Part shown: positions 1,503-28,094 of the stretch, piece after piece
How positions within the stretch are numbered: position 1 is the first letter of the stretch
Layout of the letters: every line of letters begins with the position of its first letter
IMG/VR virus record: IMGVR_UViG_3300040808_000573
Span: 1 to 31,846 of that record
Source of the DNA: a virus
Direction: 5' to 3' (one strand)
Length of the DNA: 31,846 bases
Notes under the pieces: model-generated
Told to the model about the DNA's origin: nothing
Seen by the model: only the letters and a program-made list of their open reading frames with translations
The model's database searches: none
Position numbers and translations under genes: made by a program

Positions 1503-1531
1503 TTGACATTTGCTACAAAATATGATAAAAT
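1503..1531 (+). promoter_or_regulatory. Sigma70-type promoter (late sub-operon)
   Basis: TTGACA at 1503-1508, a 17-bp spacer and TAAAAT at 1526-1531 with TG just upstream (extended -10). The -35 box begins three bases after the preceding stop codon. It would drive the 56-residue protein, scaffold, capsid and downstream genes. It matches the four other sites listed in this annotation. Confidence 0.85.
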
Positions 1532-1580
1532 ATAGTCTATCTTTGAAGTAACCTTAACGACTGGCCTCACGGAGACAACC

Positions 1581-1751
1581 ATGTCACTTGTAACACAATC
1601 AAAGTTTGATGAGTTAGTCAAGAACACTACTTCCTACCTTCAGGATGTGTTCAGGCGCTTAGATGCTATTGAGGAAAAAGTTGACAAGCTATTGTCAGCT
1701 CCGCAAGCAACCACCCGTCGTAACACCACTAAGGAGAAAGTAGATGAGTAG
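1581..1751 (+). CDS. Small coiled-coil protein, unknown function
   Basis: This 56-residue ORF starts at ATG 1581, with GGAG six bases upstream and about 50 bases downstream of the promoter at 1503. Residues 20-39 form a clear amphipathic helix (LQDVFRRLDAIEEKVDKLL) expected to make a coiled coil, followed by a Thr/Arg-rich tail. It is the first gene of the promoter-led transcript. Its stop overlaps the next start by 8 bases. The family is not recognised; a small structural or assembly factor is possible. Confidence 0.65.
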   Translation: MSLVTQSKFDELVKNTTSYLQDVFRRLDAIEEKVDKLLSAPQATTRRNTTKEKVDE

Positions 1752-1989
1752 TGAAGATAAGAAGTTTTTTGAAGATTGCCGTAGCATGTTTATTACGGAC
1801 GGCTGGAAGCATTTCCAAAAGGAAATCAATGTAGCTTTGCAGTCCATGAACCTTGGCACTGTGGACTCGTCTAACGAGTTCTGGAAAGCTAAGGGCCGCT
1901 GGGAAGCGCTGCTACAAATCGCTGGCTGGGAAAACGCAGTGCTTGCCGCAGAGCAGCAGGCGGAAGAGCCAGAAGACGAAGATGCGTAA
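1744..1989 (+). CDS. Conserved-type small acidic phage protein, unknown function
   Basis: This 81-residue protein starts at ATG 1744 with AAGGAG upstream, overlapping the previous stop. It is mainly helical, with several Trp residues (DGWKHF, EFWKAKGRWEALLQIAGWEN) and a highly acidic tail. Proteins of this size and aromatic pattern are common next to zinc-ribbon and scaffold genes in phages, but no function is known to me. It overlaps the next gene by 8 bases. Confidence 0.65.
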   Translation: MSSEDKKFFEDCRSMFITDGWKHFQKEINVALQSMNLGTVDSSNEFWKAKGRWEALLQIAGWENAVLAAEQQAEEPEDEDA

Positions 1990-2206
1990 AATCTTTGACG
2001 TGCAGTGTGAAAGCTGCGCAGAAGTAACCGAAGTGTTTGGTAGGGATAGCGACTCGTTCCGGTGCGGAGCCTGCGGTGCCCCTGCCAAACGCATCATCAG
2101 CCCAGTACGCTGTAAGCTTGAAGGGGTGTCGGGGAGTTTCCCCGGCGCCGCTATGAAGTGGGAGCGAGAGCATATCAGGGCTGGCCTTAAGAACGGACAA
2201 GCATAG
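1982..2206 (+). CDS. Zinc-ribbon protein (FmdB-like)
   Basis: This 74-residue protein starts at ATG 1982, overlapping the preceding stop. Residues 1-35 look like a zinc ribbon: FDVQCESC (C9, C12), an EVFGR strand, then CGACG (C28, C31). This resembles FmdB-type regulatory zinc ribbons seen in phages. The rest is a basic helix (KWEREHIRAGLKNG). Its role is unknown; it could bind nucleic acid or act in virion assembly, given its position before the scaffold gene. The longer upstream reading in this frame is not needed. Confidence 0.7.
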   Translation: MRKIFDVQCESCAEVTEVFGRDSDSFRCGACGAPAKRIISPVRCKLEGVSGSFPGAAMKWEREHIRAGLKNGQA

Positions 2207-2263
2207 CCATACGCCCCGTTTAGCCACAACCATCTGATAACCCGTAAGGGCCGGAGTTTAATA

Positions 2264-3091
2264 ATGGCACGATTAGTAGACGCACCCGACGACAACGCTG
2301 TGGAGACAACCGAAGAGCTTGGAACTCTTGACGAAATGGCAACGGAACAAGCCGCAGAAATTGCGGAAGCAGAGCCGGAGCCGGTAGCTGAAGAGCCACA
2401 AGACGACGACCTCCCAGAAAAGTATAGGGGCAAAAGTGCATCAGAGATTGCAACGATGCACAGGGAGCTGGAGCAACGCCTAGGCCAGCAAAGCCAAGAA
2501 GTCGGAGACTTGCGTAAAGCCTTTGACGAAATGGTTAAGCAGTCTATCGCAGCGCAACAGTCCCAGTCTGCACCGGAACAAGAAGCGGACGAGATTGACT
2601 TCTTTACCGATCCGCAGGCAGCAGTAAAGCGAGCTATTGAGAACCACCCCATGCTTAAGCAGTCTCAGGCTGTAGCGGCAGAAATGGCAAAGTCTCAAGC
2701 GCTAGCACAACTGCAGGCTGCACACCCTGACATGAAGGATGTCCTAACCGACCCCGGATTCAAAGAGTGGATTGGTAAGTCACAGGTTCGACAAGAGCTG
2801 TTTGAACGCGCCGATAAAGCGTACGACTTTGCTGCAGCAGATGAGCTAATGACGCTGTACAAGGAACGACGTGGCATCGTAGCACAAACCGCAAAGGTCG
2901 AGAAGGTGGCGCAGCAGAACGAAATCAGGAAAGCTTCTACGGGCTCGGCACGGTCTAATCCCGATAGTGCAAAGACTAGAAAGATTTACCGCCGCCGTGA
3001 CATTATTGAACTTATGAACCGTGACCCAAAGCGATACGAAGCGCTACAACCAGAGATTATGCGTGCGTACGCTGAGGGCCGTGTTAAGTAG
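2264..3091 (+). CDS. Capsid assembly scaffolding protein
   Basis: This 275-residue protein precedes the capsid gene, as scaffolds do in T7-like phages. It is strongly acidic and disordered over residues 1-60, helical and coiled-coil in the middle (Gln/Ala/Glu-rich), and basic at the C-terminus, where a helix-turn-helix-like tail (RRRDIIELMNRDPKRYEAL) could bind coat protein. This layout is typical of scaffolds, which fill the procapsid and leave on DNA packaging. The start is ATG 2264, with GGAG seven bases upstream. Sequence alone would be weak evidence; position and layout make it strong. Confidence 0.85.
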   Translation: MARLVDAPDDNAVETTEELGTLDEMATEQAAEIAEAEPEPVAEEPQDDDLPEKYRGKSASEIATMHRELEQRLGQQSQEVGDLRKAFDEMVKQSIAAQQSQSAPEQEADEIDFFTDPQAAVKRAIENHPMLKQSQAVAAEMAKSQALAQLQAAHPDMKDVLTDPGFKEWIGKSQVRQELFERADKAYDFAAADELMTLYKERRGIVAQTAKVEKVAQQNEIRKASTGSARSNPDSAKTRKIYRRRDIIELMNRDPKRYEALQPEIMRAYAEGRVK

Positions 3092-3096
3092 CCGAA

Positions 3097-3110
3097 ACGG
3101 CATTTGCCGT
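3097..3110 (+). other. Small hairpin between scaffold and capsid genes
   Basis: ACGGC, loop ATTT, GCCGT form a 5-bp stem six bases after the scaffold stop, ahead of the capsid Shine-Dalgarno. There is no U-tract, so an RNA-processing or stability element is more likely than a terminator. It is short enough to be chance. Confidence 0.3.
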
Positions 3111-3141
3111 AACGGCCCATACCTTTACGGAGTAATACATC

Positions 3142-4017
3142 ATGGCACTTGGATCTAACCACGTAACCAAAACCACCGCTGCTACCTTCATCCCCGAGAT
3201 TTGGTCCGATGAAATCATTGCAGCATACGAGAAGTCCCTTGTCGTTAAGCCGCTCGTCCGCTCCATGAGCATGACCGGTAAGAAAGGCGATACGATTCAC
3301 ATCCCGAAGCCCACCCGTGGCAGCGCCAGCGTCAAAGCTGCGCAGACGGAAGTGACCCTTATCGCTGCTACCGAGTCTGAGCTGACGGTCGCTATCGACC
3401 AGCACTACGAGTACAGCCGTCTGATTGAAGACATTGTGGACGTGCAGGCCCTGAACAGCCTCCGCCAATTCTACACGTCTGACGCCGGCTACGCTCTTGC
3501 CACCCGCGTTGACACCGCTCTGATTGCTGAGGCTGCTAACTTTACGTCGCAGCTTGAGTTCCGCAGCGGCGCCGGCACGGCCACGGCTGCTGGTACGGCA
3601 ACGGCTGGCTTCACCGACCTGGGCTTCCGCGAAGCTCTGCAGGTCCTTGACGACAACGACGTCCCGATGGACAGCCGCGTGTTCGTCATTCCGCCTGCTA
3701 TGAAGAAGGAACTGCTTGGCGTGACCAACTACGTCAGCACGGACTTCGTGACCGGCAAGCCCGTTGAGACCGGCAAGATTGGCTCTCTGTACGGCGTTGA
3801 CGTGTACGTGTCCACCAACCTGCCCACCGAAAACACGGACGAGAAAGGCGCTCTGCTTATGCACAAAGACGCCATCGTGTTCGCGGAGCAGCTTGGCGTT
3901 CGCGTCCAGACCCAATATAAGGCTGAGTACCTTGCAGACCTTATGGTTGCCGACACTTTGTACGGGGTCGAGACGTACCGCAGTGAAGCAGGCGTTAAGC
4001 TCTTCGGCACTGTGTAA
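3142..4017 (+). CDS. Major capsid protein
   Basis: This 291-residue protein follows the scaffold. It has the look of a HK97-fold podovirus coat: an N-arm with FIPEIWSDEIIAAYEKSLVVKPLV, an E-loop region rich in Thr/Val (KGDTIHIPKP), then helical spine and A-domain segments with VDTALIAEAANF and RVFVIPPAMKKELL. It would self-assemble into the icosahedral shell around the scaffold. The start is ATG 3142, with GGAG about ten bases upstream. Codon choice here is more C-ending than in neighbouring genes, as expected for the most highly expressed gene. A hairpin follows its stop. Confidence 0.92.
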   Translation: MALGSNHVTKTTAATFIPEIWSDEIIAAYEKSLVVKPLVRSMSMTGKKGDTIHIPKPTRGSASVKAAQTEVTLIAATESELTVAIDQHYEYSRLIEDIVDVQALNSLRQFYTSDAGYALATRVDTALIAEAANFTSQLEFRSGAGTATAAGTATAGFTDLGFREALQVLDDNDVPMDSRVFVIPPAMKKELLGVTNYVSTDFVTGKPVETGKIGSLYGVDVYVSTNLPTENTDEKGALLMHKDAIVFAEQLGVRVQTQYKAEYLADLMVADTLYGVETYRSEAGVKLFGTV

Positions 4018-4031
4018 ACTAAGCAGTAACC

Positions 4032-4068
4032 GCAGGGGGAAAGGCGCCGCCACGCTGAGTACCCCTGC
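4032..4068 (+). terminator. Possible hairpin after the capsid gene
   Basis: GCAGGGG (4032-4038) pairs with CCCCTGC (4062-4068) across a 23-base loop that can pair internally (GGCGCC). A short pyrimidine run follows. It could attenuate transcription from the capsid gene into the HNH and fibre genes, but the loop is long and the U-tract is poor. Confidence 0.4.
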
Positions 4069-4088
4069 TTCTCTTGGCGGAGAGCAAC

Positions 4089-4664
4089 ATGAAAAAATGT
4101 CGAGTCTGCGGGGACGTTAAGCCCGTAACAGAATTTAGCAAAAGAGCCAGAAGCAAAGACGGTCTTCAGGCAGATTGCAAAGCTTGCTGTACTGCTTATC
4201 TTAAAGAATACAGCAAGCGCAATAGAGATAAAATTAACGAACTAAATAGAAAGCGGTACGCTAAAAACGCAGAGAAAGAACGACAGCGTTCGGCGCAATG
4301 GCGCAAAGATAATCCAGAAAGGCGTAAAGAAATTACAGCTAAGTATAGAAATGCAAATAGAGAAAAATGTAATAAAGCTGTACAAAAATGGTCTAAAGCC
4401 AACAGAGATAAATGTAATGCTCGTGACGCAAAGCGCAGGGCTGTTAAGTTAAATGCTACACCTCCTTGGCTAACTCAAAAACACTGGAAAGAAATTAAAA
4501 AGATTTACGGACTAAGAAGTGTTTGTAGTTTAGCAACACAAGTTGATTACCATGTGGACCATATTGTTCCGCTAGCTGGTACAAACGTTTGTGGTTTACA
4601 CGTCCCGTGGAACCTTCAAGTTATAACCGCCAAAGAAAATAAAATCAAAGGCAACAAATATTAA
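4089..4664 (+). CDS. Free-standing HNH homing-type endonuclease
   Basis: This 191-residue basic protein has an N-terminal zinc-binding CxxC pair (C4, C7 and C30, C33) of the kind seen in phage HNH proteins, a long Lys/Arg/Asn-rich helical middle, and a C-terminal HNH core: VDHIVPLAG (D157, H158) followed by PWNLQVITAKENKIKGN. It would cut DNA and could mediate its own spread. The start is ATG 4089, with GGAG six bases upstream; an in-frame TTG at 4074 is less likely. The gene is visibly A/T-rich compared with both neighbours and splits the capsid from the fibre gene, so it looks like a recent insertion. Confidence 0.88.
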   Translation: MKKCRVCGDVKPVTEFSKRARSKDGLQADCKACCTAYLKEYSKRNRDKINELNRKRYAKNAEKERQRSAQWRKDNPERRKEITAKYRNANREKCNKAVQKWSKANRDKCNARDAKRRAVKLNATPPWLTQKHWKEIKKIYGLRSVCSLATQVDYHVDHIVPLAGTNVCGLHVPWNLQVITAKENKIKGNKY

Positions 4665-4676
4665 AGGAGAAGCATA

Positions 4677-7178
4677 GTGGCAGTGACATATACGCCCACT
4701 ACGAACTTTGGTGCTAAAGATAGTCTTCCGCAAAACGACCCCGATAAGGTTATTAAAGGTTCTGAATTTAGCGTAGAGTTTACCGCAATTCAGACGGCGT
4801 TTAGCCTCGCTGCGCCTAACGCATCGCCTACCTTTACCGGCACCGTAACCATTCCCACCGCAGACATCAACGGCGGCGCCATTGACGGAACGACCATTGG
4901 GGGCACCACGCCCGCTGCTGCATCCTTCACGACTGTTAGCGCTACCGGCAACATTACGGTTGGCGGAACGGTTGATGGGCGTGACGTAGCCGCTGACGGC
5001 ACGAAGCTTGATGGCATTGAAGCTGGCGCAGACGTAACCGATACGACGAACGTAACGGCTGCTGGCGCTTTGATGGACAGCGAGCTAACGAACATTGCGG
5101 CTGTTAAGGCGCTAGACCAAGGCGTTGCCACGACGGACTCTCCGTCCTTTGCGGGTCTTACGGCTACCGGAAGCGTCAGCCTAGCAGGCGCCTCGACCAC
5201 TGCGGACATCACCTTTGGCGACAACGACAAGGCCATCTTCGGCGCTGGGTCGGACCTTCAGATTTATCACGATGGGTCTAATAGCATTATTAGTGACCAA
5301 GGTACTGGTAGCATCAACTTGCTTGCATCTAATTATTTCAGAGTAAAGAACTCTGCGGATACATTATTAGCGGCAAGTTTTCGTGCTGATGCAGGGCAAG
5401 AATTTTATCACAACTCATCTTTAAAACTCGCCACCACCGCCACCGGCATCGACGTTACCGGCACCGCAGTAACTGACGGCCTCACCGTAGCAGGCAACGT
5501 CTCCATCGACGGCGGCACGATCAAGCTGGATGGGGACCTCGACGCCAACAACAACGTCGCCTTAGGCGATACGGTCCTAGACTCGCTAACGACGGGCGTA
5601 CGCAATACGGCGGTGGGCAGCGGCGCACTGACTGCGAATACCGAAGGTAACTATAACGTCGCTCAGGGCTATCAGGCCCTTTATACCAACACCACCGGCT
5701 CCAACAGCATCGCTCATGGTTACCGTGCGCTTTTTTACAACACTACCGGCGCTAACAACGTAGCTCAGGGCCGAGAAGCCCTCTACAACAACACCACCGC
5801 CTCTAATAACACTGCTGTGGGGTATCAGGCGGGGTATACAAACGTTACGGGGACGAACCTTACTGCAATTGGCTATCAAGCACTTCGCCTTTCAACCGCT
5901 GGGGGTAATACCGCTGTCGGTTACAGGGCAGCAGACGCAACTACTACGGGCACGGGCAACGCCGCTCTCGGTGATGTGTCCCTGTTCACAAATAGCACGG
6001 GGTCGTACAACACGGCTTTAGGCAGCAATGCTCTACGCTTTAGCACCACCGCCTCTAACAACACGGCTGTTGGTTATCAGGCTCTTTATGCGAACACCAC
6101 TGGCGACAGCCTGACTGCCGTTGGTTATCGGGCCTTAACATCAAATACCGGCGTCAACAATACGGCAGTTGGCTATAACAGCTTCCCTGCAAATACCTCC
6201 GGCATTCACAACGCTGGGCTTGGTAGGGCTTCTGGTCTTTCAAACACGACAGGTAGCTATAACACTGCCATTGGAGACTCTGCGCTCCCCTATAACACCA
6301 CCGCCTCTAACAACACGGCTGTGGGTTATGGGGCTGGGTTTAGCAATACGACTGGCGCATCAAATACGCTGGTTGGGGTCGTTGCTGGGTATAATTTAAC
6401 GACTGGTGTAGGCAACACGTTTATTGGCTCAACAGGGACAGGTTTTGGTGCTGGGTGGGAAATGACTACCGGCTCCAAAAACACCATTATTGGCGGCTTT
6501 AGCGGAAGCGGCGGCGGTCTCGACATCCGCACCTCAAACAACTACATCGTGCTGTCGGATGGGGATGGGAATCCGCGCCAGCATATAACTAATGGAGGCT
6601 TCTCTAAGCTCTGGGGGGATACTACCCCACAAAGTAACTCAGCTAGCTACCATGAATTAGCTAGCAATACGGCTAATTTGGCGGTTTATGTAACAAACAA
6701 AAACGCAAGCGGCGATGGGATTATCGTCAACTGCAACAATAGTAATAATGCCAATTATTACTTTAGAGGCTTTTCTAATTCGGCAAGTGCTACTCAGATT
6801 TATATTCATACGTCTGGGAATATCTACAACGCCAACGGTACTTATGGGACTATTTCAGACCTGAAGCTTAAGCAGGATGTTATAGATGCCGCTAGTCAAT
6901 GGGACGACATTAAAAGCCTCCGCGTTCGCAAGTTCCGGTTTAAGCAAGAGCCGGAGGGGCCTCTGCAACTTGGATTGATTGCACAGGAAGCCGAAGAGGT
7001 TTCACCCGGCTTGGTTGAAGAGCTGGTGGACCGAGACGCCGAGAACAATGACCTTGGGACCACGACGAAAGCAGTAAAATACTCCATCCTCTACATGAAG
7101 GCCGTTAAAGCCCTGCAAGAGGCCATGGATCGCATTGAAACCTTAGAGGCCAAGGTGGCCGCACTGGAGGCAAACTAA
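4677..7178 (+). CDS. Tail fibre with S74 intramolecular chaperone domain
   Basis: This 833-residue protein starts at GTG 4677 with AAGGAG upstream. The N-terminal part (PNASPTFTGTVTIPT, then repeated VTGTAV-type strands) resembles phage fibre shafts. Residues 310-579 hold 16 repeats of 16-17 residues (consensus NTAVGYQALYANTTG), like the beta-roll heads of trimeric adhesins. The C-terminus is a peptidase S74 chaperone domain, with the Ser-Lys dyad expected at S727 and K732 (SDLKLK) and a terminal coiled coil (METLEAKVAALEA-type). In that family the domain trimerises the fibre and then cuts itself off before the Ser. The role is host receptor binding. Confidence 0.88.
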   Translation: MAVTYTPTTNFGAKDSLPQNDPDKVIKGSEFSVEFTAIQTAFSLAAPNASPTFTGTVTIPTADINGGAIDGTTIGGTTPAAASFTTVSATGNITVGGTVDGRDVAADGTKLDGIEAGADVTDTTNVTAAGALMDSELTNIAAVKALDQGVATTDSPSFAGLTATGSVSLAGASTTADITFGDNDKAIFGAGSDLQIYHDGSNSIISDQGTGSINLLASNYFRVKNSADTLLAASFRADAGQEFYHNSSLKLATTATGIDVTGTAVTDGLTVAGNVSIDGGTIKLDGDLDANNNVALGDTVLDSLTTGVRNTAVGSGALTANTEGNYNVAQGYQALYTNTTGSNSIAHGYRALFYNTTGANNVAQGREALYNNTTASNNTAVGYQAGYTNVTGTNLTAIGYQALRLSTAGGNTAVGYRAADATTTGTGNAALGDVSLFTNSTGSYNTALGSNALRFSTTASNNTAVGYQALYANTTGDSLTAVGYRALTSNTGVNNTAVGYNSFPANTSGIHNAGLGRASGLSNTTGSYNTAIGDSALPYNTTASNNTAVGYGAGFSNTTGASNTLVGVVAGYNLTTGVGNTFIGSTGTGFGAGWEMTTGSKNTIIGGFSGSGGGLDIRTSNNYIVLSDGDGNPRQHITNGGFSKLWGDTTPQSNSASYHELASNTANLAVYVTNKNASGDGIIVNCNNSNNANYYFRGFSNSASATQIYIHTSGNIYNANGTYGTISDLKLKQDVIDAASQWDDIKSLRVRKFRFKQEPEGPLQLGLIAQEAEEVSPGLVEELVDRDAENNDLGTTTKAVKYSILYMKAVKALQEAMDRIETLEAKVAALEAN
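5604..6413 (+). repeat. 16 tandem 16-17-residue beta-roll repeats in the tail fibre
   Basis: The 270 codons divide exactly into 14 units of 17 and 2 units of 16 residues. Each unit starts [N/L]TAxG and ends in TTGxx or TTASN. Units 4, 9 and 14 share TTASN, units 6 and 11 are the two 16-mers that begin LTA, and units 8 and 13 end GSY. This gives a five-unit (about 252-bp) higher-order repeat. DNA near 5796, 6047 and 6299 (CACCGCCTCTAA) repeats almost unchanged. Confidence 0.85.
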
Positions 7179-11300: not shown

Positions 11301-11376
11301 GCTAACGCCTTACCAAAAGAAAGCAATGGCGCCTTTTGTTGACTATATTGCCAAAGGCCGAGGAATGTTATCATGA
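8359..11376 (+). CDS. Large repeat-rich virion-associated protein
   Basis: This 1005-residue protein has four zones: an Ala/Pro/Gln-rich N-terminus (residues 1-90), a Gly/Ala hydrophobic stretch (about 180-255), a Pro-rich linker (about 275-380), and eight tandem repeats of about 65 residues (412-942) predicted as helical coiled coil. A basic, aromatic C-terminus follows (KPKWTDLFQYTTLTPYQKK). Repeat hallmarks are VAANEAAGMERDAAL and TREELLGELGATEE. Position before tail tubular protein A suggests a virion structural or ejection-associated protein, perhaps a length-setting rod. I do not recognise the family. It overlaps the next gene as ATGA. Confidence 0.75.
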   Translation: MGGFNLNIPLSFNGITITPQQIQNAVAAQNAQPAQTLTEAVAAMPAQAPAAAPAQDAAPAQNVTPATVAAPAPVATTSPEVGKAGGVVSAGTLGLPDLSDFEVATSLGMEYTGDRDQDQMVQDAVEQARNADARATGIAPSEEEIAQRTAQFNDTMERLQNDPAFREQWFGKRDYRKFNLSPADILKVAASFAIPFAAPAVAGALASATGVTALGGAGGIALTQAALGGGLAAATGEDPIKGALSSAFLTNPAQASAGTNLTNLAKQTAEVFDNSKNQPAPDAQPASVVEQVFADVLPRPDYTPKQPTPAPAPSLPVDITEPPLLEPDIPTPVVTPPVELTPTPVDSGGGGGAQAGGAQQPAAPTQPEDITQDTTAPEGFEPVLPPSYSETINNVLEQLDVFRQEGQSSTQAVQDAVDSVASSMDMTREELLGELGTTQENILADIAVRDETLRGEIEAGQAAAAEERQAIIDQVAANEEAGMTRDDALQEAIDAVAAANNTTREDLLGKLGATEETLAGQIETLGETAATERQAIIDEVRANEAAGMERTDALQAAIDAIAEANNTTREDLLTEMGTSQEAILTEVNTQLEGITGSIEGLQGGVTRNEELIGAVNDRLDEYVAEGQTRADALEQAVADVAAQTDQSFMDVLGYLGDLQESVNVDVENVRVAGEEGRQAILDQVAANEAAGMERDAALDEAIAGVADSLGVAVEDLLSQMGTNRTELEGAVGTLEERVTNVESNVLEQVAANEAAGMERDAALETAVNKVAEDLGVAVEDILSDLGTTREGLEGAIGTLEQQVADVQTNVLDQVAANEQAGMDRDAALETAVNKVSEELGVTREELLGELGATEETLSGRIGELQSSVEQQVADAQASVLEQVAANEQAGMARDEAINQAVEQVAGDLGTTRQELLDQLGTSEANILEQVAAGAAAGQARDQAIGEALGQMGTELGTGLMSLQAQARAYKPKWTDLFQYTTLTPYQKKAMAPFVDYIAKGRGMLS
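9592..11184 (+). repeat. Eight ~65-residue (195-bp) coding repeats
   Basis: Each unit begins AL[Q/E/D]xAVxxVA, has an LLGELG[A/T]TxE turn in the middle and ends QVAANE[A/Q]AGM[E/D]RD. Several units are exactly 65 residues; one is longer (79) and the last is cut to about 47. Synonymous positions differ widely between units, so the protein is conserved while the DNA has drifted. Confidence 0.85.
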
Positions 11377-12020
11377 CGTATTTGGAAGCTGTAAACCAAG
11401 TATTGCAGCGGTTACGTGAAGACACCGTAACGGACGTAACGGGTCTTGATGATCCCGTAGCTGAAATGGTTACTGCGTTAGTAAACGATGCTAAGCAGCT
11501 TGTCGAAGATGCACACACTTGGAATGCGCTGCGCTACGAGTGGAGCGTAACGACCGCTGCAGACGACAACCTGTATAGCTTGACAAATGCTGGAAATTAT
11601 GGTAAAATAGAGGCTATCATTAAGGATGACGGAGTGGAGCTTAAGCAAGAACAGCTTCAGAATATCCGTAAGCGACAAGCCGCATCGCCAGCAAACAATA
11701 AGCCTAAGTACTATGCAGTCAACGGCGTCGATGCCAGTGGCGACATCCAAATACAGCTATTCCCGAAACCTGATAACGTATACAGCTACACCGTATATGG
11801 ATTCAAGCGTCAAGCAGAACTAAGCGCTAAGAATGATGTGTTGCTTGTACCCGGTAAGCCCGTTGTGTACGCAGCGCTAGCTATGGCAGCACGCGAGCGT
11901 GGCGAAGTGGGCGGGCAAACGGCAGCAGAGTTGTTTGCGCTAGCCGGTACGTACCTTAGCGACGCTATCGCATGGGACTCTGCTCTTAACGACTACGATA
12001 ACGTCTGGATGACTGTGTAA
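11373..12020 (+). CDS. Tail tubular protein A (T7 gp11-like)
   Basis: This 215-residue protein starts at ATG 11373 in an ATGA overlap. It has the typical gp11-like start (TYLEAVNQVLQRLREDTVTDV), the VNDAKQLVEDAHTWNALRYEW helix and the LYGFKRQAELS-type strand, with an ending close to WDSALNDYDNVWM. This family forms the ring between portal and tail nozzle. Length is close to T7 gp11 (196). It is followed by a TAATG overlap with tail tubular protein B, the canonical order. A sigma70-type promoter is embedded in its coding sequence at 11580. Confidence 0.9.
   Translation: MTYLEAVNQVLQRLREDTVTDVTGLDDPVAEMVTALVNDAKQLVEDAHTWNALRYEWSVTTAADDNLYSLTNAGNYGKIEAIIKDDGVELKQEQLQNIRKRQAASPANNKPKYYAVNGVDASGDIQIQLFPKPDNVYSYTVYGFKRQAELSAKNDVLLVPGKPVVYAALAMAARERGEVGGQTAAELFALAGTYLSDAIAWDSALNDYDNVWMTV
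11580..11608 (+). promoter_or_regulatory. Internal sigma70-type promoter in the tail tubular A gene
   Basis: TTGACA at 11580-11585, a 17-bp spacer and TAAAAT at 11603-11608 with TG just upstream. It keeps the pattern of the other promoters although it lies in a coding frame. It would feed tail tubular protein B and the internal virion protein genes. Confidence 0.65.
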
Positions 12021-20433: not shown

Positions 20434-20793
20434 CTATTTACTCCTCTTCTTTGCGTCGCGTTCTTCGTTAGTCTTGACTTGGTGGCAGTCTTTACACAGC
20501 ACTTGGAATCCGTCAGCTTCACAGAACATACGCTCTACAAAGCCGGGGAGGTCGTCGTAGTTCCGTAACGACCCGCACTGTACAATATGGTCCACTTCCA
20601 CCTGCCTTGATCCAAACCAGCCGCCGCAGTGGGCGCATTCGTAGGTGTTGTACGCTACCTTAGCGGCTTGCTTGGCGCTGTGCTTCGGGCCCCATCTTTG
20701 GAAAGCAGAACGGAGGGCGCTACGTATAAAGCCAAAGTACCGTGCCTCCGTCCACTTGCCATCGTTACGTGTCCTTGGTACCTTCTTGCTCAT
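20434..20793 (-). CDS. HNH nuclease
   Basis: This 119-residue basic protein has a zinc-knuckle HNH core: CAHC (C53, C56), VEVDHI (D68, H69), an insert (SLRNYDDLPGFVERMF), then LCKDCHQVKT (C100, C103, H104). The start is ATG 20793, with GGTGGA seven bases upstream. It sits between exonuclease and metallophosphoesterase in a compact operon with normal composition, so it is more likely a resident DNA-metabolism or packaging nuclease than a recent homing insertion, unlike the HNH gene at 4089. Confidence 0.85.
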   Translation of the reverse strand: MSKKVPRTRNDGKWTEARYFGFIRSALRSAFQRWGPKHSAKQAAKVAYNTYECAHCGGWFGSRQVEVDHIVQCGSLRNYDDLPGFVERMFCEADGFQVLCKDCHQVKTNEERDAKKRSK

Positions 20794-20905
20794 CTAGTGT
20801 TTCCACCGTAATGCGTATCACTCCGTGTTCCTTCATCCATAGTAGGGCCATCCTGGCTATCGCTCTTGCTTGCTTTGGGTATGTAACAATATGTGTTATC
20901 TTCAT
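20765..20905 (-). CDS. Small coupled ORF, unknown function
   Basis: This 46-residue ORF starts at ATG 20905, overlapping the exonuclease stop as ATGA, with GGGAG eight bases upstream. It overlaps the HNH start by 29 bases. The product is basic and alpha-beta (KITHIVTYPKQARAIARMAL, VIRITVETLDEQ). The good ribosome site and the two-sided overlap support a real gene. The family is not recognised. Confidence 0.6.
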   Translation of the reverse strand: MKITHIVTYPKQARAIARMALLWMKEHGVIRITVETLDEQEGTKDT

Positions 20906-21627
20906 AACGGAAACTCCCACATCTGCTCCGGCTCACGCCTAATCCATAGCTGTCTCCCTTGTCGTAGTAGCCAGTCGTCTAGTATCTCCTCCTTCTCGTC
21001 AACGCACATGCCCACCTTGTCGAAGGCTTGAGAGTATACGTCACGTACGTAGGCGTACATCTCAGCGGGGTCAAACATATCTTCGATGGGGTCAAGCAGA
21101 GTGCGTGTAGCTTTCTGGCCCAAGCGACGGAACAGTCCGGGGATGTTGTCCGTGGCGTCGCCAGTCAGTAGCTGCTTGTAGAAGAAACGGTCTGCATCTT
21201 CCGGTGACACGTTGAATAACTCCTTGCGCCTCCAGTTCCAGTGCCAGCCGGGAACGCCGTACAGGTCTTTGTCCAGCGTTGCAATACCATACCCGTGCTG
21301 GTACGCCATGTACCCAAGCTTGTCGTCAGCCTCCTCGCCTTGCACAAGCTCAGCGCCCAAAGAGTCAATCATGTACTCCTTGAGCGCTGCGAAGTGTGCG
21401 GGCTTCTCAGACTTCCGTGTGCCCTTGTAAGGGTAGGTATCGCAGCCGTACTGCAGCCGATAGTTACCGTCCCCTGTTAGGTAGATTTCAGCACCCTCCG
21501 CCCCAAGCTGCTGCATAATCTGCTCGCAGACGGAGCGTGCTGAACGACAGGCAAAGGCAATGGGGTCATCCTTGGCGGCGAACGCCACGCTGTACAGAAT
21601 GATGTCGCCGTCCAGACCCCAGCGCAT
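20902..21627 (-). CDS. 5'-3' exonuclease (T7 gp6-like, PIN/FEN fold)
   Basis: This 241-residue protein has the acidic residues of phage 5' nucleases: LDGD (D6, D8), the basic arch (YPYKGTRKSEKP), GEEADD (E99, D101, D102), TLDKDL (D119, D121) and GDATDNIPG (156-164), the DNA-binding turn. It would remove RNA primers and degrade DNA 5'-3', as T7 gp6 does. The start is ATG 21627 in a TAATG overlap with SSB, so the two are coupled. It belongs to the SSB-led transcript. Confidence 0.9.
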   Translation of the reverse strand: MRWGLDGDIILYSVAFAAKDDPIAFACRSARSVCEQIMQQLGAEGAEIYLTGDGNYRLQYGCDTYPYKGTRKSEKPAHFAALKEYMIDSLGAELVQGEEADDKLGYMAYQHGYGIATLDKDLYGVPGWHWNWRRKELFNVSPEDADRFFYKQLLTGDATDNIPGLFRRLGQKATRTLLDPIEDMFDPAEMYAYVRDVYSQAFDKVGMCVDEKEEILDDWLLRQGRQLWIRREPEQMWEFPL

Positions 21628-22073
21628 TACAGCACCTCAGCCATTGCGTCTTCGTCAGCCGTCACTTCGGGCTGGACAAGCTCTTCAATGGACATGCTGA
21701 CTAGCGACGGACGTACCACACCGTCACGTGCCTTGTACGCCTTAACCTTAGCGCGCACTACGGAGCCATATCCAATCTCGCGGGGGTTGCCCTCAAAGGG
21801 CGTCTTGCCATCGTCTTCAAACAAGATTTTGAAACGCCCGCTGTTGTCAATAGGATACTGCGACTTGCATTCCACAAACTTGCCGCGTGCGTACTTGTCA
21901 TCAGGCTTTTGCTTCAGCTCAATGCCAAGCTCTTCCAGCCGTTCGATAGCACGTTCGCTAAGGTTGGTGAGCTGCACGCCGTACTTGCCGGTCGGTGCGC
22001 CACGGTAGGTAATCTCGTCAACCAGGGACGGGAAGCTAACGGTAGCGCGGACGGTTACGATTTGGTTTTCCAT
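21627..22073 (-). CDS. Single-stranded DNA-binding protein
   Basis: This 148-residue protein has an alternating beta pattern consistent with an OB fold (VTVRATVSFPSL, GKYGVQLTNL, GRFKILFEDDG, GSVVRAKVKAYKAR) and ends in an acidic tail (PEVTADEDAMAEVL) such as phage SSBs use to contact polymerase and helicase. There is no decisive motif, but position just before the exonuclease and after polymerase is typical of T7 gp2.5-like proteins. The start is ATG 22073, with AAGGA seven bases upstream. It has its own promoter at 22120. Confidence 0.75.
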   Translation of the reverse strand: MENQIVTVRATVSFPSLVDEITYRGAPTGKYGVQLTNLSERAIERLEELGIELKQKPDDKYARGKFVECKSQYPIDNSGRFKILFEDDGKTPFEGNPREIGYGSVVRAKVKAYKARDGVVRPSLVSMSIEELVQPEVTADEDAMAEVL

Positions 22074-22119: not shown

Positions 22120-22148
22120 ATTTTCCCACAAGTAGCTTTAAATGTCAA
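22120..22148 (-). promoter_or_regulatory. Sigma70-type promoter for SSB-exonuclease-MazG
   Basis: TTGACA at 22148-22143, a 17-bp spacer and GAAAAT at 22125-22120 on the minus strand. It shares 11 bases on each side (GCTTGACATTT and AAAATATAGTC) with the plus-strand promoter at 1503, at the same spacing. The -35 box starts four bases after the polymerase stop. Confidence 0.7.
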
Positions 22149-22152: not shown

Positions 22153-23796
22153 TTAGTGAGTTTCCGCCCAGTTATTTCCTACCTTAAACTCTCCGTCGAG
22201 CGGACACCGGAGGTCAAGCTGTCGTCCCGCTTCGCGTATAGCGTTACGGAACACTGCGCCTACCTGCTGCGCATACTCTTCAGGCACCTCAACCTGAAAC
22301 TCATCATGCACTTGAGCCACTAGCTTGTATGGGTAGCCGTAGCTTGCTAGCTTCTGAGTCGCAATGACCAGTGCCTTCTTCATGACGATAGCGCCAGCGG
22401 ATTGCAGCAGGGTGTTGAGTGCTGCGTGTTCGCTACGTATCAGCACACGGCGCCCGTCAAGCCCCGGTAAGCTACCGTCTAGCCCGTGCCTAGCCACCTT
22501 GTTAATCAGCTTCAGAAGGGCAGGGAGGCTGTCTAGGAAGCGCTGCTTAAGCTGTGCGCCCTTGCGTGACGACCCGCCTACAATGCTGCCAATCTTGGCG
22601 TCACCGGCACCGTAGAGGAAGGCGTAGATGAACGTCTTCGCTTGCGCTCTGGTGTCCAAGCCGGCAGCTTGCTGATTGTAGGTGTGGATGTCACCGTTGA
22701 GTATCAAGTCCGTGTACTTAGCATCGTCCATGTAGTGGGCCAGCATGCGTAGCTCAAGGCCACTAGCGTCAATGCCGACAAGCTTGCTGCCCTCAGGCAC
22801 AACGAAGCATTGGCGGTACAGAGAGTCGCTAGGAATCTGTGCCATGTTGGGCGAGCTGTGCGTCATGCGGCCCGTCACGGCACCGCACGTGTTGACACGG
22901 CCATGGATACGTCCGTCGTCCTGCACCGCATCAAGCCAGGACTTGAGCATACCGTAGCGCTTCTGAAGCGTGAGGTACTCAAGGACAAGAGCAGCTTCAG
23001 GTATCTTTTTGTTTTGCTTAAGAGTAGCTTCGTCTACTTTTGGTTTACCACTTGGCGTAGTCTCACACCAAACAGCACCCTTCTGCGCCAGACGCTCCGC
23101 CACTTGCTGCCGTGACGCTACGTTGAACACAGTTACTTTGTCCTTGAGCCGCTTGCCAGTCTTCTCAGACCAGCGCTCCTCCACGATGGGCGGGAAGATA
23201 GCCTGAAGCTCTGCTTCAATTTCCCGCATGCGCTGTTCGTGGTCCCGATACAAGGTGCAGGCGGTGTCGAAGTCGAAGGCAAAGCCGTTGGCAATCTGCT
23301 GCACCGTAGCCTTAGCGACATCATGCTCAAGGTTAATAGACCGCTGACTGAAGCCTTGCCGGTAAAGCTCTCCGGTTATGTGTTCGTACACGTCCCAGTT
23401 AGCACGGCAGTCTTGCAGGCAGTAGCGAATCATGTCGTCCGTCAGGCCCTTGTCGAAGTCGGCAGCATCAAACTCTTCCTTGAGTTCTTTGCCGGCCCGA
23501 AGCGCCCAAGCTTTTAGTGAATGCCCACCGTCAGCAGGAGGGTTAAGGAGGCGGCCCATGACGAGGGTGTCATGAACCGCCCCGTCCCATGCCCAGCCCC
23601 ACACGCGCTGCAGGACGGGCAGGTCGAAGGCAAGGAGGTTGTGCCCGATAACTGCATCAACGCCCTTGAGTGCTGCGGAGAGTTCGGATGACGTAGCGCA
23701 GTGTACGCTCTCGTTCTGAGCGGGCAGGTACACTCCAGCCATCCAGATCATGTCGTGTGAAAGATTCGTTTCGATGTCCAAGACTGCTAGTTTCAT
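22153..23796 (-). CDS. DNA polymerase, family A (T7-like)
   Basis: This 547-residue enzyme has both domains. The 3'-5' exonuclease carries DIE (D7, E9), GHNLLAFD (52-58) and YCLQD (125-129). The polymerase carries motif A IDASGLELR (D343), motif B R383-x3-K387-x3-Y391 and motif C HDE (497-499). The Tyr at 391 corresponds to T7 Y526 and E. coli Pol I F762. It is shorter than T7 gp5 (704), and the thioredoxin-binding insertion of T7 is not evident. The start is ATG 23796, with GAGGAG eight bases upstream. It replicates the phage genome with the primase-helicase encoded upstream. Confidence 0.95.
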   Translation of the reverse strand: MKLAVLDIETNLSHDMIWMAGVYLPAQNESVHCATSSELSAALKGVDAVIGHNLLAFDLPVLQRVWGWAWDGAVHDTLVMGRLLNPPADGGHSLKAWALRAGKELKEEFDAADFDKGLTDDMIRYCLQDCRANWDVYEHITGELYRQGFSQRSINLEHDVAKATVQQIANGFAFDFDTACTLYRDHEQRMREIEAELQAIFPPIVEERWSEKTGKRLKDKVTVFNVASRQQVAERLAQKGAVWCETTPSGKPKVDEATLKQNKKIPEAALVLEYLTLQKRYGMLKSWLDAVQDDGRIHGRVNTCGAVTGRMTHSSPNMAQIPSDSLYRQCFVVPEGSKLVGIDASGLELRMLAHYMDDAKYTDLILNGDIHTYNQQAAGLDTRAQAKTFIYAFLYGAGDAKIGSIVGGSSRKGAQLKQRFLDSLPALLKLINKVARHGLDGSLPGLDGRRVLIRSEHAALNTLLQSAGAIVMKKALVIATQKLASYGYPYKLVAQVHDEFQVEVPEEYAQQVGAVFRNAIREAGRQLDLRCPLDGEFKVGNNWAETH

Positions 23797-23869: not shown

Positions 23870-23871
23870 GG

Positions 23872-24066
23872 CTAAGCCTCCATTCGGTACGAAGCGTAAC
23901 GCCGGCCATCATGCACCTTCATGTCAGACACAATACGAAACCCTTCGTTACGTAGATCGTTAACGCGGGACGCTAGGCGCATAATACCATAGCGAGTCAG
24001 TGCCTCAAGCGGCGTGATGGAACCGTATTGGTTGATGTGATACATAACCTTGTCGTTCTGAGTCAT
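23872..24066 (-). CDS. Winged helix-turn-helix DNA-binding protein
   Basis: This 64-residue protein looks like a minimal winged helix: KVMYHINQYGSITPLEALTRYGIMRLASRVNDLRNEGFRI (helix-turn-helix with recognition helix around MRLASRVNDL), followed by a beta wing (IVSDMKVHDGRRYASYRM). I recognise this pattern from many small phage proteins. It probably binds DNA; it could be a transcription factor for its own operon. The start is ATG 24066, with AGGAG six bases upstream. It is first in the transcript from the promoter at 24162, ahead of polymerase. Confidence 0.85.
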   Translation of the reverse strand: MTQNDKVMYHINQYGSITPLEALTRYGIMRLASRVNDLRNEGFRIVSDMKVHDGRRYASYRMEA

Positions 24067-24161: not shown

Positions 24162-24191
24162 ATTTTATCATGCCGACGGGGTGTGTGTCAA
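24162..24191 (-). promoter_or_regulatory. Sigma70-type promoter for HTH-polymerase
   Basis: TTGACA at 24191-24186, an 18-bp spacer and TAAAAT at 24167-24162 on the minus strand, with TG before the -10. The -35 box overlaps the TGA stop of the ribonucleotide reductase gene. Confidence 0.8.
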
Positions 24192-26098
24192 GCACCAGAG
24201 CCGACAACTTCACAAACACCACCAGTGCAGGCCAGCTCTTGGCTACCCGTAGTGGTGTCGCCACGCTCAAAGGCAGGTAGAGAGGCCCAGTCAATCTCAG
24301 GCATCTTAGCAGACAGCTCCTTATACTCCTGCTCCGTAAGCTCCTGATACGGCGCTTGACGGTACGTGCCGTTGTCGTAGGGCAGCAGACTGATACCAGA
24401 CATGATGTCCCAGTTGTCCCAAATCCACTGGCATACAGCAAAGAATTCATCTTCCTTGTAGTACACCGTGATGGACGGCTTGTGTTCACACCAGTGTAAC
24501 TGATACTGCTTCCACACTTCAAGCTGTCCGATAGCGCCCACATCATTGCGGAAGATGGAGGTCTTCGGTGCTTCAATCGGGAAGCTGAACACGGTGGTGG
24601 TGTCAGGCTTCATGACGCACGGCTCATACGGTACGCCCTGGGCGCGCAGGAAGTCCGTCATGGGGTCTTTGTTGTCCTGCCGTACGGTGCGTACGTAGTA
24701 CCGTGAGTAGTTGGGGTGGATGCCTGAAGCGCACAGCGCAAGCTGACTCACCGTACCGCTAGGCTTGACGCACGTGATGGCCGCAGCAGGATTGATCTCA
24801 AGGCTCTCAGCCCACTGCTTGTTCACGTTGACGGCACGCTCACGCATGACAGTCAGCCACTCTTCAAGCTTCTTGTTACCCTTGCTGCCGTTAAGCACAG
24901 GGTGGTCCATGAGGCCCGTCAAGCTGACGCCAAGCAGCGCTTCCTCCTCGCAGTTCTTCTTCCACACAGAGCGGAGGTAACGGAAGTTAGTGAGCGTAGC
25001 TTGCAGCGTACCGAAAGCCGTAGCCACCTCCACCTTCTCCAGCAGTTGGTCAAGCGTATCGGTGGACCGTACAATCACTTCGCTCAGGTTGCAAAACTCA
25101 GCGGGGCGCAGGAGGATTTCGCTGCACGGGTTACACCCAAAGGCTGCGGTGTTGTCCCGCCGTCCGTTACGCCCCGCAATGTTGCGTGCTGCTTCCCGTG
25201 AGAAGATGCCACGCTCACCAGAGTAGCTCTCGTACAGCGCCTTCATCTCGCTCATGAAGAACGGGAAGTCAGGCTTCTCGTCGTACACTGCGCTGTTGTT
25301 AGCGAGGGCACGCTGGCCGTTACGCTCCCACCACTGCCCAGACTTGGCTGCCTGCATGCGGTCAGACACAGGGCTCGACAGGCTGATGAGGGCAGAGCGG
25401 CGCACACCACCCACCACCACGATCTCAGCGATCTTGCAGCAGATGTCATGGCACTCTAGGTCGGTGAGCTTCCTACCCGCAGCGCCCTTGAACACGTCCA
25501 CAAGGAAGCGGTGCAGGTCTTCCAGCGGCTCCGGCCCAGACGCCCTGCCGCCAAAGGTTTTCAGGCGTGCGCCAGCGGGGCGTACCTGGGAGTAGTCCAG
25601 CTTGGGCACCTCGCCAGCGTAGAGCATGGCGATTAGCTGTCGCGTACTCTTAGCCCAGCCAATCTTGCTGTCCGCTACGACAATCGTGGTGTCGGTATTG
25701 TCAAACTCTTCGGCCACGATGGGCAGCTTCTTGACTTCCTCACGCTCCACGCTGAAGCCTACGCCCGTTCCGCAGAGCAGGATGTACATCAGCTCGTCGA
25801 AAGCTTTCGGGTCATTGATGGCAAGGTAGGCGCAGTTGAAGCCGGCTACGTTGTCACGGTCCAGCGCAGGGCCAGCCGTCATGAGGGCGCGCATGCTGGG
25901 CACAACCTCAAGGTTGCTGATAGCTTTCTTGAAGCGCGTTGCTTCATTGCTGCCGATCATGCCCTTGTCTTTCCAGTAGTTTACGTAGCGGTTGACAGTC
26001 TCGTCCCACGTTTCGCGCCGCTGCTCGTCTTCCAGCCAGCGAGCGTAGCGACTAGCGTGGATGAACGCGCTGTAGCTTGGGTTGCTTGTCGGAATCAT
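24188..26098 (-). CDS. nrdJ: Class II (adenosylcobalamin-dependent) ribonucleotide reductase
   Basis: This 636-residue enzyme reduces ribonucleotides to deoxyribonucleotides for phage DNA synthesis. Motifs: FNC (C89, first redox Cys), GCNPCSEI (N323, thiyl-radical C325, E327) and FCNLSEV (C336, second redox Cys, 11 residues after C325 as in the Lactobacillus leichmannii enzyme), and a C-terminal CTGGVC shuttle pair. The size and single-chain layout fit the monomeric type, and no separate radical-generating subunit or activase gene is visible, so cobalamin from the host would be needed. The start is ATG 26098, with AAGGAG six bases upstream. Confidence 0.92.
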   Translation of the reverse strand: MIPTSNPSYSAFIHASRYARWLEDEQRRETWDETVNRYVNYWKDKGMIGSNEATRFKKAISNLEVVPSMRALMTAGPALDRDNVAGFNCAYLAINDPKAFDELMYILLCGTGVGFSVEREEVKKLPIVAEEFDNTDTTIVVADSKIGWAKSTRQLIAMLYAGEVPKLDYSQVRPAGARLKTFGGRASGPEPLEDLHRFLVDVFKGAAGRKLTDLECHDICCKIAEIVVVGGVRRSALISLSSPVSDRMQAAKSGQWWERNGQRALANNSAVYDEKPDFPFFMSEMKALYESYSGERGIFSREAARNIAGRNGRRDNTAAFGCNPCSEILLRPAEFCNLSEVIVRSTDTLDQLLEKVEVATAFGTLQATLTNFRYLRSVWKKNCEEEALLGVSLTGLMDHPVLNGSKGNKKLEEWLTVMRERAVNVNKQWAESLEINPAAAITCVKPSGTVSQLALCASGIHPNYSRYYVRTVRQDNKDPMTDFLRAQGVPYEPCVMKPDTTTVFSFPIEAPKTSIFRNDVGAIGQLEVWKQYQLHWCEHKPSITVYYKEDEFFAVCQWIWDNWDIMSGISLLPYDNGTYRQAPYQELTEQEYKELSAKMPEIDWASLPAFERGDTTTGSQELACTGGVCEVVGSGA

Positions 26099-26213
26099 TG
26101 TCTACTCCTTTGTTGAAATACATACGCTCTAGTTTGTCAAGCTTCTTAGACACTTGGTCTAGTAATCTTTCCAGCTCCTCGACACGAAGTGCTGAGGCGG
26201 GGGTCTGACGCAT
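26052..26213 (-). CDS. Small coiled-coil ORF overlapping DUF1289 and RNR genes
   Basis: This 53-residue ORF starts at ATG 26213 with GGAGG seven bases upstream, inside the DUF1289 gene (55-base overlap), and ends inside the RNR gene (47-base overlap). Residues 11-32 form a clear heptad helix (VEELERLLDQVSKKLDKLER). Without it there would be a 60-base gap between the two genes. The ribosome site and heptads support translation; the function is unknown. Confidence 0.55.
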   Translation of the reverse strand: MRQTPASALRVEELERLLDQVSKKLDKLERMYFNKGVDNDSDKQPKLQRVHPR

Positions 26214-26347
26214 TCTAATTCCTCCATAATTTGTTCACGCTGCTCGTCGGTGTACCGTGACCAGCGCACGATTTGCTCCTTGGTTCTACCGCAGCCAGTG
26301 CACCTGTCCCCCATCAGCTCACACTCGCTGCGACACGGTGACTTCAT
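26159..26347 (-). CDS. DUF1289 family small Cys protein
   Basis: This 62-residue protein has the DUF1289 pattern: SPCRSEC (C5, C9), GDRCTGCGRTKEQIVRW, then YTDEQREQIMEEL. Family members are short, common in proteobacteria and uncharacterised; the four cysteines suggest metal binding. The start is ATG 26347, overlapping the primase-helicase stop (TATGA), so it is translated with it. Transfer from a proteobacterial host is plausible. Confidence 0.85.
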   Translation of the reverse strand: MKSPCRSECELMGDRCTGCGRTKEQIVRWSRYTDEQREQIMEELECVRPPPQHFVSRSWKDY

Positions 26348-28041
26348 AGCGCCTCCTCCTCAGGCGGCGTGTACTCGCTGAGCCGTCCAGTCTCCATGTC
26401 GTAGAGCAGGTGACCGGCTGGTCCGGTGATGCCACTGAAGCGATTCTTAAGCACGCGAATGCGCGTGGTGTTGCGTTCAGTTGCACTTTCAGCTTGGCCG
26501 TTACGCTCCAAGCCGATTACAAAGTCGCTGAGCTGAGCGATGGACGCACTGCCCCGCAGTTGCGACACAGACGTAACCGCTCCATCCTCGTGGCCCTTGC
26601 CGTCAGGGCGCTTGAGGTGTGACACAGCGAACAGCACAATGCCCGTGTCCTGCGTAAGCGTGCGCAGCTTAGTCATGATTTCGTCAAGGGCTTTACGCTC
26701 GTCGCCTTGCTGCCCAGCAGAAACCAGGATTGATATATGGTCAAGGACGATGACGTTACAGTCCAGCGCCTTAGCCATGAAGCGTACACGGGACACAACA
26801 TCGTCAACGCTAGCGCCAATGTCGAAGCCAGCGTCCATGATGAACAGCCTGTCGTCCCCATACACACGGTCGTAGCAGTCTAGCCAGTCCTGAGAGCCAC
26901 GTTCCACCTTGCTGATGGGCAGATGTAGCGGGGTTTCTAGGTCCACGCTCATGAAGCCTTCAGCGGTACGCTCGACGCTCTCCTCCATGAACAGGCAGCC
27001 GATACGATTGTCCGTGGTGTTCTTGATGTGCATCACAATCTCACGCAGGATGGACGATTTGCCCAGCCCGCTACCTGCCGTGATGGTGACCAGCTCCGTA
27101 GGGCGGAAGCCGTAGGTTAGTTCATTCAGCTTAGTCCACGGGTAGTCGCCAAGCTTGCGTGGCTTAGGCGCTAGCAAGCGCTCAAGCAGCTCCTCCTTGG
27201 ACAGCACACCCTTCGGCGTATACAGCGACGCCTGCCAGAACGCATCCGTAAACTCCTTCTTACGGCCAGCCTTGAGGTAGTCGCACGCATCCTTGCCAAG
27301 CCGTGCGTCAAGCTTCATGACACGCAGCTTACCAGCGAATACTTCAGCAGCTTTCTCAATGCCTTCGCGTCCTGGTTCGTCAGCGTCAAAGCACAAGATG
27401 ATTTCATCGAAGCCATCAAGGAAATTGTACGCTGCCTTGAAGTCACGCCCTGCACCAGCAGCGCCAGACTTTAGGGACACCACAGGCGACTTACCATCGA
27501 ACAGTTGATTAGCCGCAATGGCGTCAAGCTCACCTTCAGTGACCACGATACGCCGCTGCTCGTGGTTACCGTAACGCTGCTGACCAAAGAGGCCAGCGTC
27601 CTTGGTGTTACCTACAACAGTGAAACCTTTGGTGCTGACGGTGCGTACCTTGAAGCCGATAGGCTGGCTGCTGTCTTCACCAAAGTAGGGATAGTAATGC
27701 TTATCTCCGTCAACAATAACACCGTAATGTTTGGCGTACGTTGACGTAATGTTGCGCTCTGGGATGCTAGACGCAGGCGCTTCGGCCCACTTAGCAATCA
27801 AGCGCTCAAGCTCTAGGTCTTTCGTAAGTGTTACGCTAGGTGTGTCGATAGGTTTCTCCGTGCCGAAGGAACGCTCCGGTTTGATGAACGGTACGGTGTT
27901 GTCGTTACGTGGCGCTGGCGTGTGCTTCTCGCAAGCGAAACAAAACTTACTACCGTTACTGTATACTGCGTTAGCGTCGCTGCTACCGCAAGCTTCACAG
28001 CCCTCGTGTTTAACGAAGGTAGATTCGCTAGTGTTATACAT
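26344..28041 (-). CDS. Primase-helicase (T7 gp4-like)
   Basis: This 565-residue protein has the T7 gp4 layout: zinc finger (C15, C18, C34, C37), TOPRIM primase core with TEGE (168-171) and DADEPG (219-224), then a DnaB-type helicase domain with Walker A GSGLGKSS (323-330), Walker B IVLDH (D434) and a C-terminal GSASIAQLSDFVIGLERN with Arg-finger region. It unwinds DNA and lays primers at the fork. Length matches T7 gp4 (566). The start is ATG 28041, with GGAGG five bases upstream, under the promoter at 28066. Confidence 0.96.
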   Translation of the reverse strand: MYNTSESTFVKHEGCEACGSSDANAVYSNGSKFCFACEKHTPAPRNDNTVPFIKPERSFGTEKPIDTPSVTLTKDLELERLIAKWAEAPASSIPERNITSTYAKHYGVIVDGDKHYYPYFGEDSSQPIGFKVRTVSTKGFTVVGNTKDAGLFGQQRYGNHEQRRIVVTEGELDAIAANQLFDGKSPVVSLKSGAAGAGRDFKAAYNFLDGFDEIILCFDADEPGREGIEKAAEVFAGKLRVMKLDARLGKDACDYLKAGRKKEFTDAFWQASLYTPKGVLSKEELLERLLAPKPRKLGDYPWTKLNELTYGFRPTELVTITAGSGLGKSSILREIVMHIKNTTDNRIGCLFMEESVERTAEGFMSVDLETPLHLPISKVERGSQDWLDCYDRVYGDDRLFIMDAGFDIGASVDDVVSRVRFMAKALDCNVIVLDHISILVSAGQQGDERKALDEIMTKLRTLTQDTGIVLFAVSHLKRPDGKGHEDGAVTSVSQLRGSASIAQLSDFVIGLERNGQAESATERNTTRIRVLKNRFSGITGPAGHLLYDMETGRLSEYTPPEEEAL

Positions 28042-28065
28042 TGTGTCCTCCGTAAAGGGCCTAAT

Positions 28066-28094
28066 ATTTTATCATGAATCGGAGCAAAAGTCAA
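28066..28094 (-). promoter_or_regulatory. Sigma70-type promoter for primase-helicase and RNR
   Basis: TTGACT at 28094-28089, a 17-bp spacer and TAAAAT at 28071-28066 on the minus strand, with TG before the -10. The -35 box overlaps the TGA stop of the upstream gene, as at 24186. Confidence 0.8.

Follow-up and report, generated by a model that had tools for sequence, protein, structure and literature searches.

The window analysed here is the whole of a 31.8-kb linear IMG/VR virus record. Its plus arm is made up of structural genes, namely the major capsid protein at 3142, fibre proteins and an amidase-like protein at 12020, whereas its minus arm contains the replication genes for an exonuclease, a family A DNA polymerase, a ribonucleotide reductase and a primase/helicase. 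The window does not include the beginning of the early region or the genes for portal and terminase; the whole plan is visible in the 37.7-kb relative G003. The features discussed in this study are collected in Table 1.

Two further genes were noted during the annotation. An early protein encoded at 29087-29497 (-) consists of repeated G-x-V-W-G-x-V units (GDVWGDVQGCVRGSV...) and is possibly a beta-helix; shorter relatives of it occur in G003 and G005. In one related contig (L240:9079-9696) a stretch of about 600 bases separates two matching parts of the DNA polymerase gene, in the manner of an intron or homing endonuclease insertion.

Table 1. Predicted promoters (-35 element, spacer length in bp, -10 element) and genes of the window.
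Feature	Position	Strand	Context
Promoter TTGACA-17-TAAAAT	1503..1531	+	Upstream of late gene 1581-1751 and the capsid genes
Promoter TTGACA-17-TAAAAT	11580..11608	+	Within tail gene 11373-12020, codons L T N A G N Y G K I
Promoter TTGACA-17-GAAAAT	22120..22148	-	Between DNA polymerase and gene 21627-22073
Promoter TTGACA-18-TAAAAT	24162..24191	-	-35 contains ribonucleotide reductase stop codon
Promoter TTGACT-17-TAAAAT	28066..28094	-	Upstream of primase/helicase; -35 contains stop of the ~55-aa gene
Major capsid protein	3142..4017	+	Downstream of promoter 1503
46-aa beta-alpha-beta protein	20765..20905	-	Co-segregates with promoter type
Exonuclease	20902..21627	-	Downstream of promoter 22148
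Family A DNA polymerase	22153..23796	-	Downstream of promoter 24191
DNA primase/helicase	26344..28041	-	Served by promoter 28094
~55-aa conserved gene	28091..28255	-	Between SutA-like gene and promoter; 71-78% identical across types
136-aa early protein	28248..28658	-	Putative SutA-type RNAP-binding domain at the N-terminus (residues 10-34), then a helical middle and an acidic tail at the C-terminus; co-segregates with promoter type

Promoter sites in the window

All five sigma70-type promoters that the original prediction had placed on the two strands of the window were found at the positions and with the letters listed in Table 1. Their anatomy is also as predicted, with a TTGACA or TTGACT -35 element, spacers of 17, 17, 17, 18 and 17 bp, a TG one base 5' of the -10 element and a -10 element of the form [T/G]AAAAT. 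Four of the sites had been described as overlapping or abutting the stop codon of the preceding gene, which is indeed the case. The TGA within TTGACA or TTGACT is itself the stop of the upstream gene at 24191 and 28094, and at 1503 and 22148 the upstream stop is situated 3-4 bases 5' of the site.

A chance origin of the five sites was ruled out by shuffled sequences and leave-one-out matrix scans. The pattern TTGACW-N14/15-TGN-KAAAAT has five matches in the window and none in 300 dinucleotide-preserving shuffles, and the same pattern minus the TG occurs at a mean of 0.01 per shuffle. Each left-out site was regained at rank 1-6 when the window was scanned with a matrix built from the others. 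The matrix scores of the five sites range from 23.8 to 28.4, compared with a best shuffle score of 14.5 on average and 21.2 at maximum; the comparison of matrix hits with shuffled sequence, suggested in the original prediction as a check, thus gave no equally good matches in the shuffles. Other sites detected by a generic sigma70-like scan of the window occur at chance level only (11 vs 9.6; 11 vs 8.4), and the five sites are therefore distinct from the rest of the window. They combine a TTGACA-like -35 element, a spacer within 16-18 bp, the TG, an A at position 2 and a T at position 6 of the -10 element, and are predicted to be sigma70-type promoters of the extended -10 kind.

It had been proposed that the phage uses host sigma70 for both early and late genes. 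The sites are of the sigma70 type and would serve both gene arms as proposed, whereas the word early does not hold since the first (left-most early) operon begins outside the window and has a different candidate promoter in G003. The family would instead serve replication (middle) and structural (late) genes. The candidate early promoter of G003 (L092/L093), CTTGACA-N17-TACCAT at 21198-21130 (-), lies before the first early gene and is unlike the family. A second conserved TTTTGTACAAT motif was observed near 21590 in the same genome.

The -10 element among related phages

Relatives with an 85-100% identical DNA polymerase were found to have promoters at matching places, namely upstream of the primase, over the stop codon of the ribonucleotide reductase, after the DNA polymerase, inside the tail gene and upstream of gene 1581. 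A sixth family site is located upstream of terS in these relatives, beyond the end of the window. Counterparts of the promoter at 1503 occur in G002 (9245+) and G003 (27455+), both with TAAGAT. The site at 11580 is kept at offset +207 of the tail gene in every locus with at least 81% tail-protein identity (41/41) and also in several loci at 47-64% identity.

The suggestion that TAAAAT may be a phage-specific signature is right in kind, although the signature belongs to a lineage, as relatives have TAAGAT or TAGAAT at the same sites. AAAAT is present at every site in the lineage of the window and AAGAT at every site in a second lineage, such that GAAAAT at 22148 becomes GAAGAT in the other type. 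Among the 24 relatives and contigs with at least two sites, mixed genomes were not observed (0/24), all of them being either xAAAAT or xAAGAT throughout. A broad search in which the inner -10 bases were left free returned just AAAAT or AAGAT in 76 loci of close relatives. Each of the six site classes is found in both types, with the rest of the site usually unchanged. A third lineage (L137, L149/L173, and L240 from the same sample) has TAGAAT at its sites, and more distant relatives have TATAAT (L162, L167) or TATACT (G006) at more than one site. The A at -11 and the T at -7 are invariant in the close relatives and in the TAGAAT lineage, the changes being confined to hexamer positions 3-5. These two bases are described as being held in protein pockets of RNAP (PMC9300723).

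The tail-gene promoter offers a particular view of this change as the switch concerns the -9 base, a synonymous AAA/AAG codon position. In a tail-gene tree built with the switch codon removed, the type changes five times, with good branch support for at least three of the changes; among 241 variable columns of the gene, the -9 base alone predicts the type perfectly. The tail protein of four contigs (L106, L107, L133 and L135) shares 97% identity with that of the window, yet these contigs are of the opposite promoter type. Base composition or motif avoidance was rejected as a cause of the switch, since the GC content and the genome-wide counts of AAAAT and AAGAT are equal between the types. A possible sixth site of the window, TTTACA-19-TGATAACAT at 11395 (-), lies antisense near the beginning of the tail gene; it is conserved in both types and does not switch, and was treated as coding conservation. 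The concerted change of the inner -10 bases is not readily explained by host sigma70 alone, and a phage-encoded modifier is more likely.

Genes that follow the promoter type

For 15 genes, the identity within and between promoter types was compared and type changes were counted on the gene trees. Only two of them show a clean single split by type with 100/100 support: the SutA-like gene at 28248-28658, from 9 AAAAT-type and 9 AAGAT-type genomes, and the 46-aa gene, from 10 genomes of each type. The identity between types is at most 57% for the former and 49% for the latter, whereas several neighbouring genes are 95-100% identical. Type changes number 4-6 on the trees of late-arm genes, and one on the exonuclease tree, two each on those of the primase and DNA polymerase and three on that of the ribonucleotide reductase. 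The two co-segregating genes are 7 kb apart with recombining genes between them, and their substitutions are mostly at third positions, which indicates that both are real coding genes. Part of the co-segregation may be linkage because the early region recombines little, as the two changes of the primase indicate; upstream of the SutA-like gene this region was compared in only a few genomes.

Two other genes were considered and set aside. One is a 174-aa gene, missing from the window, that likewise splits by type and codes for an HNH homing endonuclease. At L092:11042-11566, between the DNA polymerase and the family promoter, lies a free-standing enzyme of this kind (HNH_3, AP2 domain), which occurs at that place in AAGAT-type and some AAAAT-type phages but not in the window. 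The gene at 23872-24066 (-), directly before the DNA polymerase, encodes a winged helix-turn-helix protein (HTH_39) that is present in part of the AAAAT-type phages only; it was rejected as the promoter reader as it is missing from several genomes of the same type.

The product of the SutA-like gene is matched by the Pfam SutA-RBD family (PF20661) with an E-value of 2.3e-6. The score is 27.3 bits for the protein and 29.5 bits in a six-frame search against a curated cut-off of 29.3, with AAGAT-type members scoring 11-17 bits, and 12 of the 13 family members match at E<=1. Among solved structures, the family profile matches SutA alone (7f0r, 7xl3 and 7xl4, residues 62-91), and weakly so, at E 0.052. 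The SutA residues at the interface with RNAP are K60, R64, L67, M71, F74, L75, G78, G79, V81 and I84 (PMC9300723). The window protein has eight of these ten unchanged and identically spaced, with M71 replaced by I and L75 by E, and the AAGAT type has fewer; the counterparts are K10, R14, L17, I21, F24, G28, G29, V31 and I34. We class the protein as SutA-like and not as SutA because the acidic N-terminal region before the binding domain is absent, the binding segment starting at about residue 10 and the acidic stretch being C-terminal. Its AlphaFold model is weak (pLDDT 62, pTM 0.24), a structure search with this model matched nothing significant, and a search of named phages returned no close relative. 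The gene belongs to the early operon and is separated from the first family promoter by a single small gene, a position that would suit a protein made early to activate middle and late genes. In a more distant relative, another protein carrying a SutA-type segment (27.4 bits) is encoded just before the primase (L020:4619-5014), and a search for family promoters there found none.

The 46-aa protein has a confident predicted beta-alpha-beta model, no Pfam match and no meaningful PHROG or fold match, a structure search of the model having returned nothing significant. It is possible, though we hold this only tentatively, that this protein and not the SutA-like one, or the pair jointly, sets the promoter specificity, for instance by binding to RNAP or DNA. 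Its co-segregation is the cleanest, in the largest sample, and includes the mosaic contigs L106, L119, L122 and L021. However, the gene lies downstream of a family promoter, which is late for a trigger, and in the TAGAAT lineage L240 it is absent from its usual place while a 34% relative of the SutA-like protein is present, a combination that favours the SutA-like protein as the type-setter. One poor fit was encountered in the partial contig L332 (SutA-like gene at 5264-5452, promoter at -1449), in which an AAAAT late promoter is combined with an AAGAT-kind N-terminal half (63 aa) of the SutA-like protein; this speaks against that half as the determinant.

Candidate readers of the promoters and known systems

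The original prediction had noted that no phage RNA polymerase was in view. This is borne out in a wider search, as single-subunit RNAP (PF00940) has no match in the window or in the 37-kb relatives G002, G003 and G006, the same search being positive in G008, G010 and G011. Sigma domains of region 2 or 4 (PF04542, PF04545) have no match in eight records with positive controls, a search that very divergent sigmas could escape. A T7-type RNAP or a phage sigma was therefore rejected as the promoter reader, neither being detected in the window or its 37-kb relatives.

The absence of a detected RNAP or sigma gene in the window and the relatives examined also agrees with an explanation in which these are plain host sigma70 promoters and the types reflect hosts whose RNAP or helper proteins differ in -10 preference, with no phage factor involved. 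TTGACA, the 17-18 bp spacing, the TG and the key -10 bases are kept at all sites, which is in line with it. A search of bacterial genomes with the DNA polymerase gave distant matches only (27-45%), none of them pointing to a host. We nevertheless regard this explanation as rather unlikely. The switching positions lie outside the -11 and -7 pockets named for bacterial RNAP (PMC9300723), so that host preference there should be weak. Nearly identical late genes are joined to opposite types in L106 and the window, and two phage genes split by type when their neighbours do not. It is improbable that linkage alone accounts for the pattern, with two lineages having diverged once, each fixing its own -10 letter, and late-gene recombination blurring the rest. 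The limited recombination of the early genes described above agrees with this, whereas the late-arm promoters sit in freely crossing genes (5-6 changes) and still always match the early-arm type of the same genome; a neutral base would be expected to track the late-gene tree and not the early one. Most improbable of all is that the sites bind a repressor, nickase or other phage DNA-binding protein and only resemble sigma70 boxes, since, although any trans-acting DNA reader is compatible with concerted change and a winged-helix gene is nearby, their sigma70 anatomy is exact, all are co-directional with the downstream genes and right after stop codons, and that gene is absent in part of the same type.

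The best reading is probably that host RNAP with its primary sigma factor is re-tuned by a phage-encoded SutA-like co-factor. More broadly, we put at roughly one in two the probability that an early phage factor, most likely the SutA-like protein and possibly together with the 46-aa protein, tunes host RNAP to the middle and late promoters. From what was computed, namely a promoter family kept at orthologous places, its concerted switching, two co-segregating genes, a SutA-domain match and no RNAP or sigma gene detected, we infer that the factor binds RNAP, activates transcription and reads the inner bases of the -10 element. The family sites would be the middle and late promoters, of which host RNAP with its primary sigma factor would read the -35 element, the TG of the extended -10 and the two key bases of the hexamer, A at -11 and T at -7. 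The early factor would dock on the beta protrusion of RNAP, where it may aid promoter melting and lend the enzyme a preference at hexamer positions 3-5, the inner bases of the -10 element. If this preference changed, all promoters of the genome would have to follow, which would produce the concerted all-A or all-G types.

As seen by cryo-EM, the C-terminal end of the SutA binding segment points towards sigma region 3.1 (PMC9300723), so the C-terminal part of the phage protein would be delivered near the extended -10 element. We suggest as a tentative extension, itself doubtful, that this part, placed near sigma region 3 and the melted -10 element, may read the bases left exposed by sigma and give the host RNAP-sigma70 a phage-specific preference, with promoters and factor evolving together.

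Such a reading of exposed -10 bases would, if true, be a capture of the host polymerase by a new route, without a new sigma, DNA-binding activator or RNAP. The case bears on the way in which podoviruses lacking an RNA polymerase gain control of host transcription. Were the SutA-like protein the reader, a small cofactor bound to RNAP would be able to re-tune host sigma70 at individual -10 positions, and the SutA domain family would gain a phage branch. The two to three promoter types with matching protein types amount to a natural swap experiment in the sequences.

Small early phage proteins that redirect host RNAP, as the proposed factor would, include T4 MotA/AsiA, T7 gp2, Xp10 P7 and T5.026. 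To our knowledge, none of these has a SutA-type domain or co-varies with a -10 letter. With no single-subunit RNA polymerase gene detected in the window, G002, G003 and G006, these phages do not appear to be Autographiviridae-like, and with sigma region 2 or 4 undetected in eight records they are probably not of the phiEco32 kind, which has its own sigma. The capsid protein of the window is just 26-36% like those of the best annotated phages (cyanophages A-4L, PP and Pf-WMP3), and its DNA polymerase is at most about 45% like those of pelagiphages and roseophages.

The two opposed arms and the apparent lack of an RNA polymerase resemble the RNAP-less podoviruses of the T7 supergroup (roseophage SIO1, cobaviruses and Vibrio phage VpV262), with which the DNA polymerase, primase/helicase and ribonucleotide reductase are shared; in the parts of that source consulted, neither concerted promoter switching nor a SutA-like protein is described for them (PMC6775973). 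The LUZ24/PaP3/tf phages similarly have convergent arms and host sigma70 promoters at conserved positions with no need of a phage RNAP, but their -10 and -35 elements are canonical and lineage-specific concerted -10 variants are not reported in the sections consulted (PMC3517423). In phiEco32 and 7-11, middle and late promoters are likewise at kept places and their sequence changes together with a phage-encoded factor. The factor in that case is a sigma subunit of the phage, and the promoter changes in its entirety, whereas here a sigma was not found and only the inner -10 bases change (PMC8948821). SutA of Pseudomonas aeruginosa has an RNAP-binding segment with the same interface pattern and an acidic, largely disordered remainder, and is a chromosomal stress and slow-growth factor not known to choose promoters by their -10 sequence (PMC9300723). 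Unlike SutA, the phage protein has its binding segment at the N-terminus, followed by a C-terminal extension of about 100 aa. The predicted promoter family is less surprising than its concerted switching together with two small genes, one of them SutA-like by its sequence.
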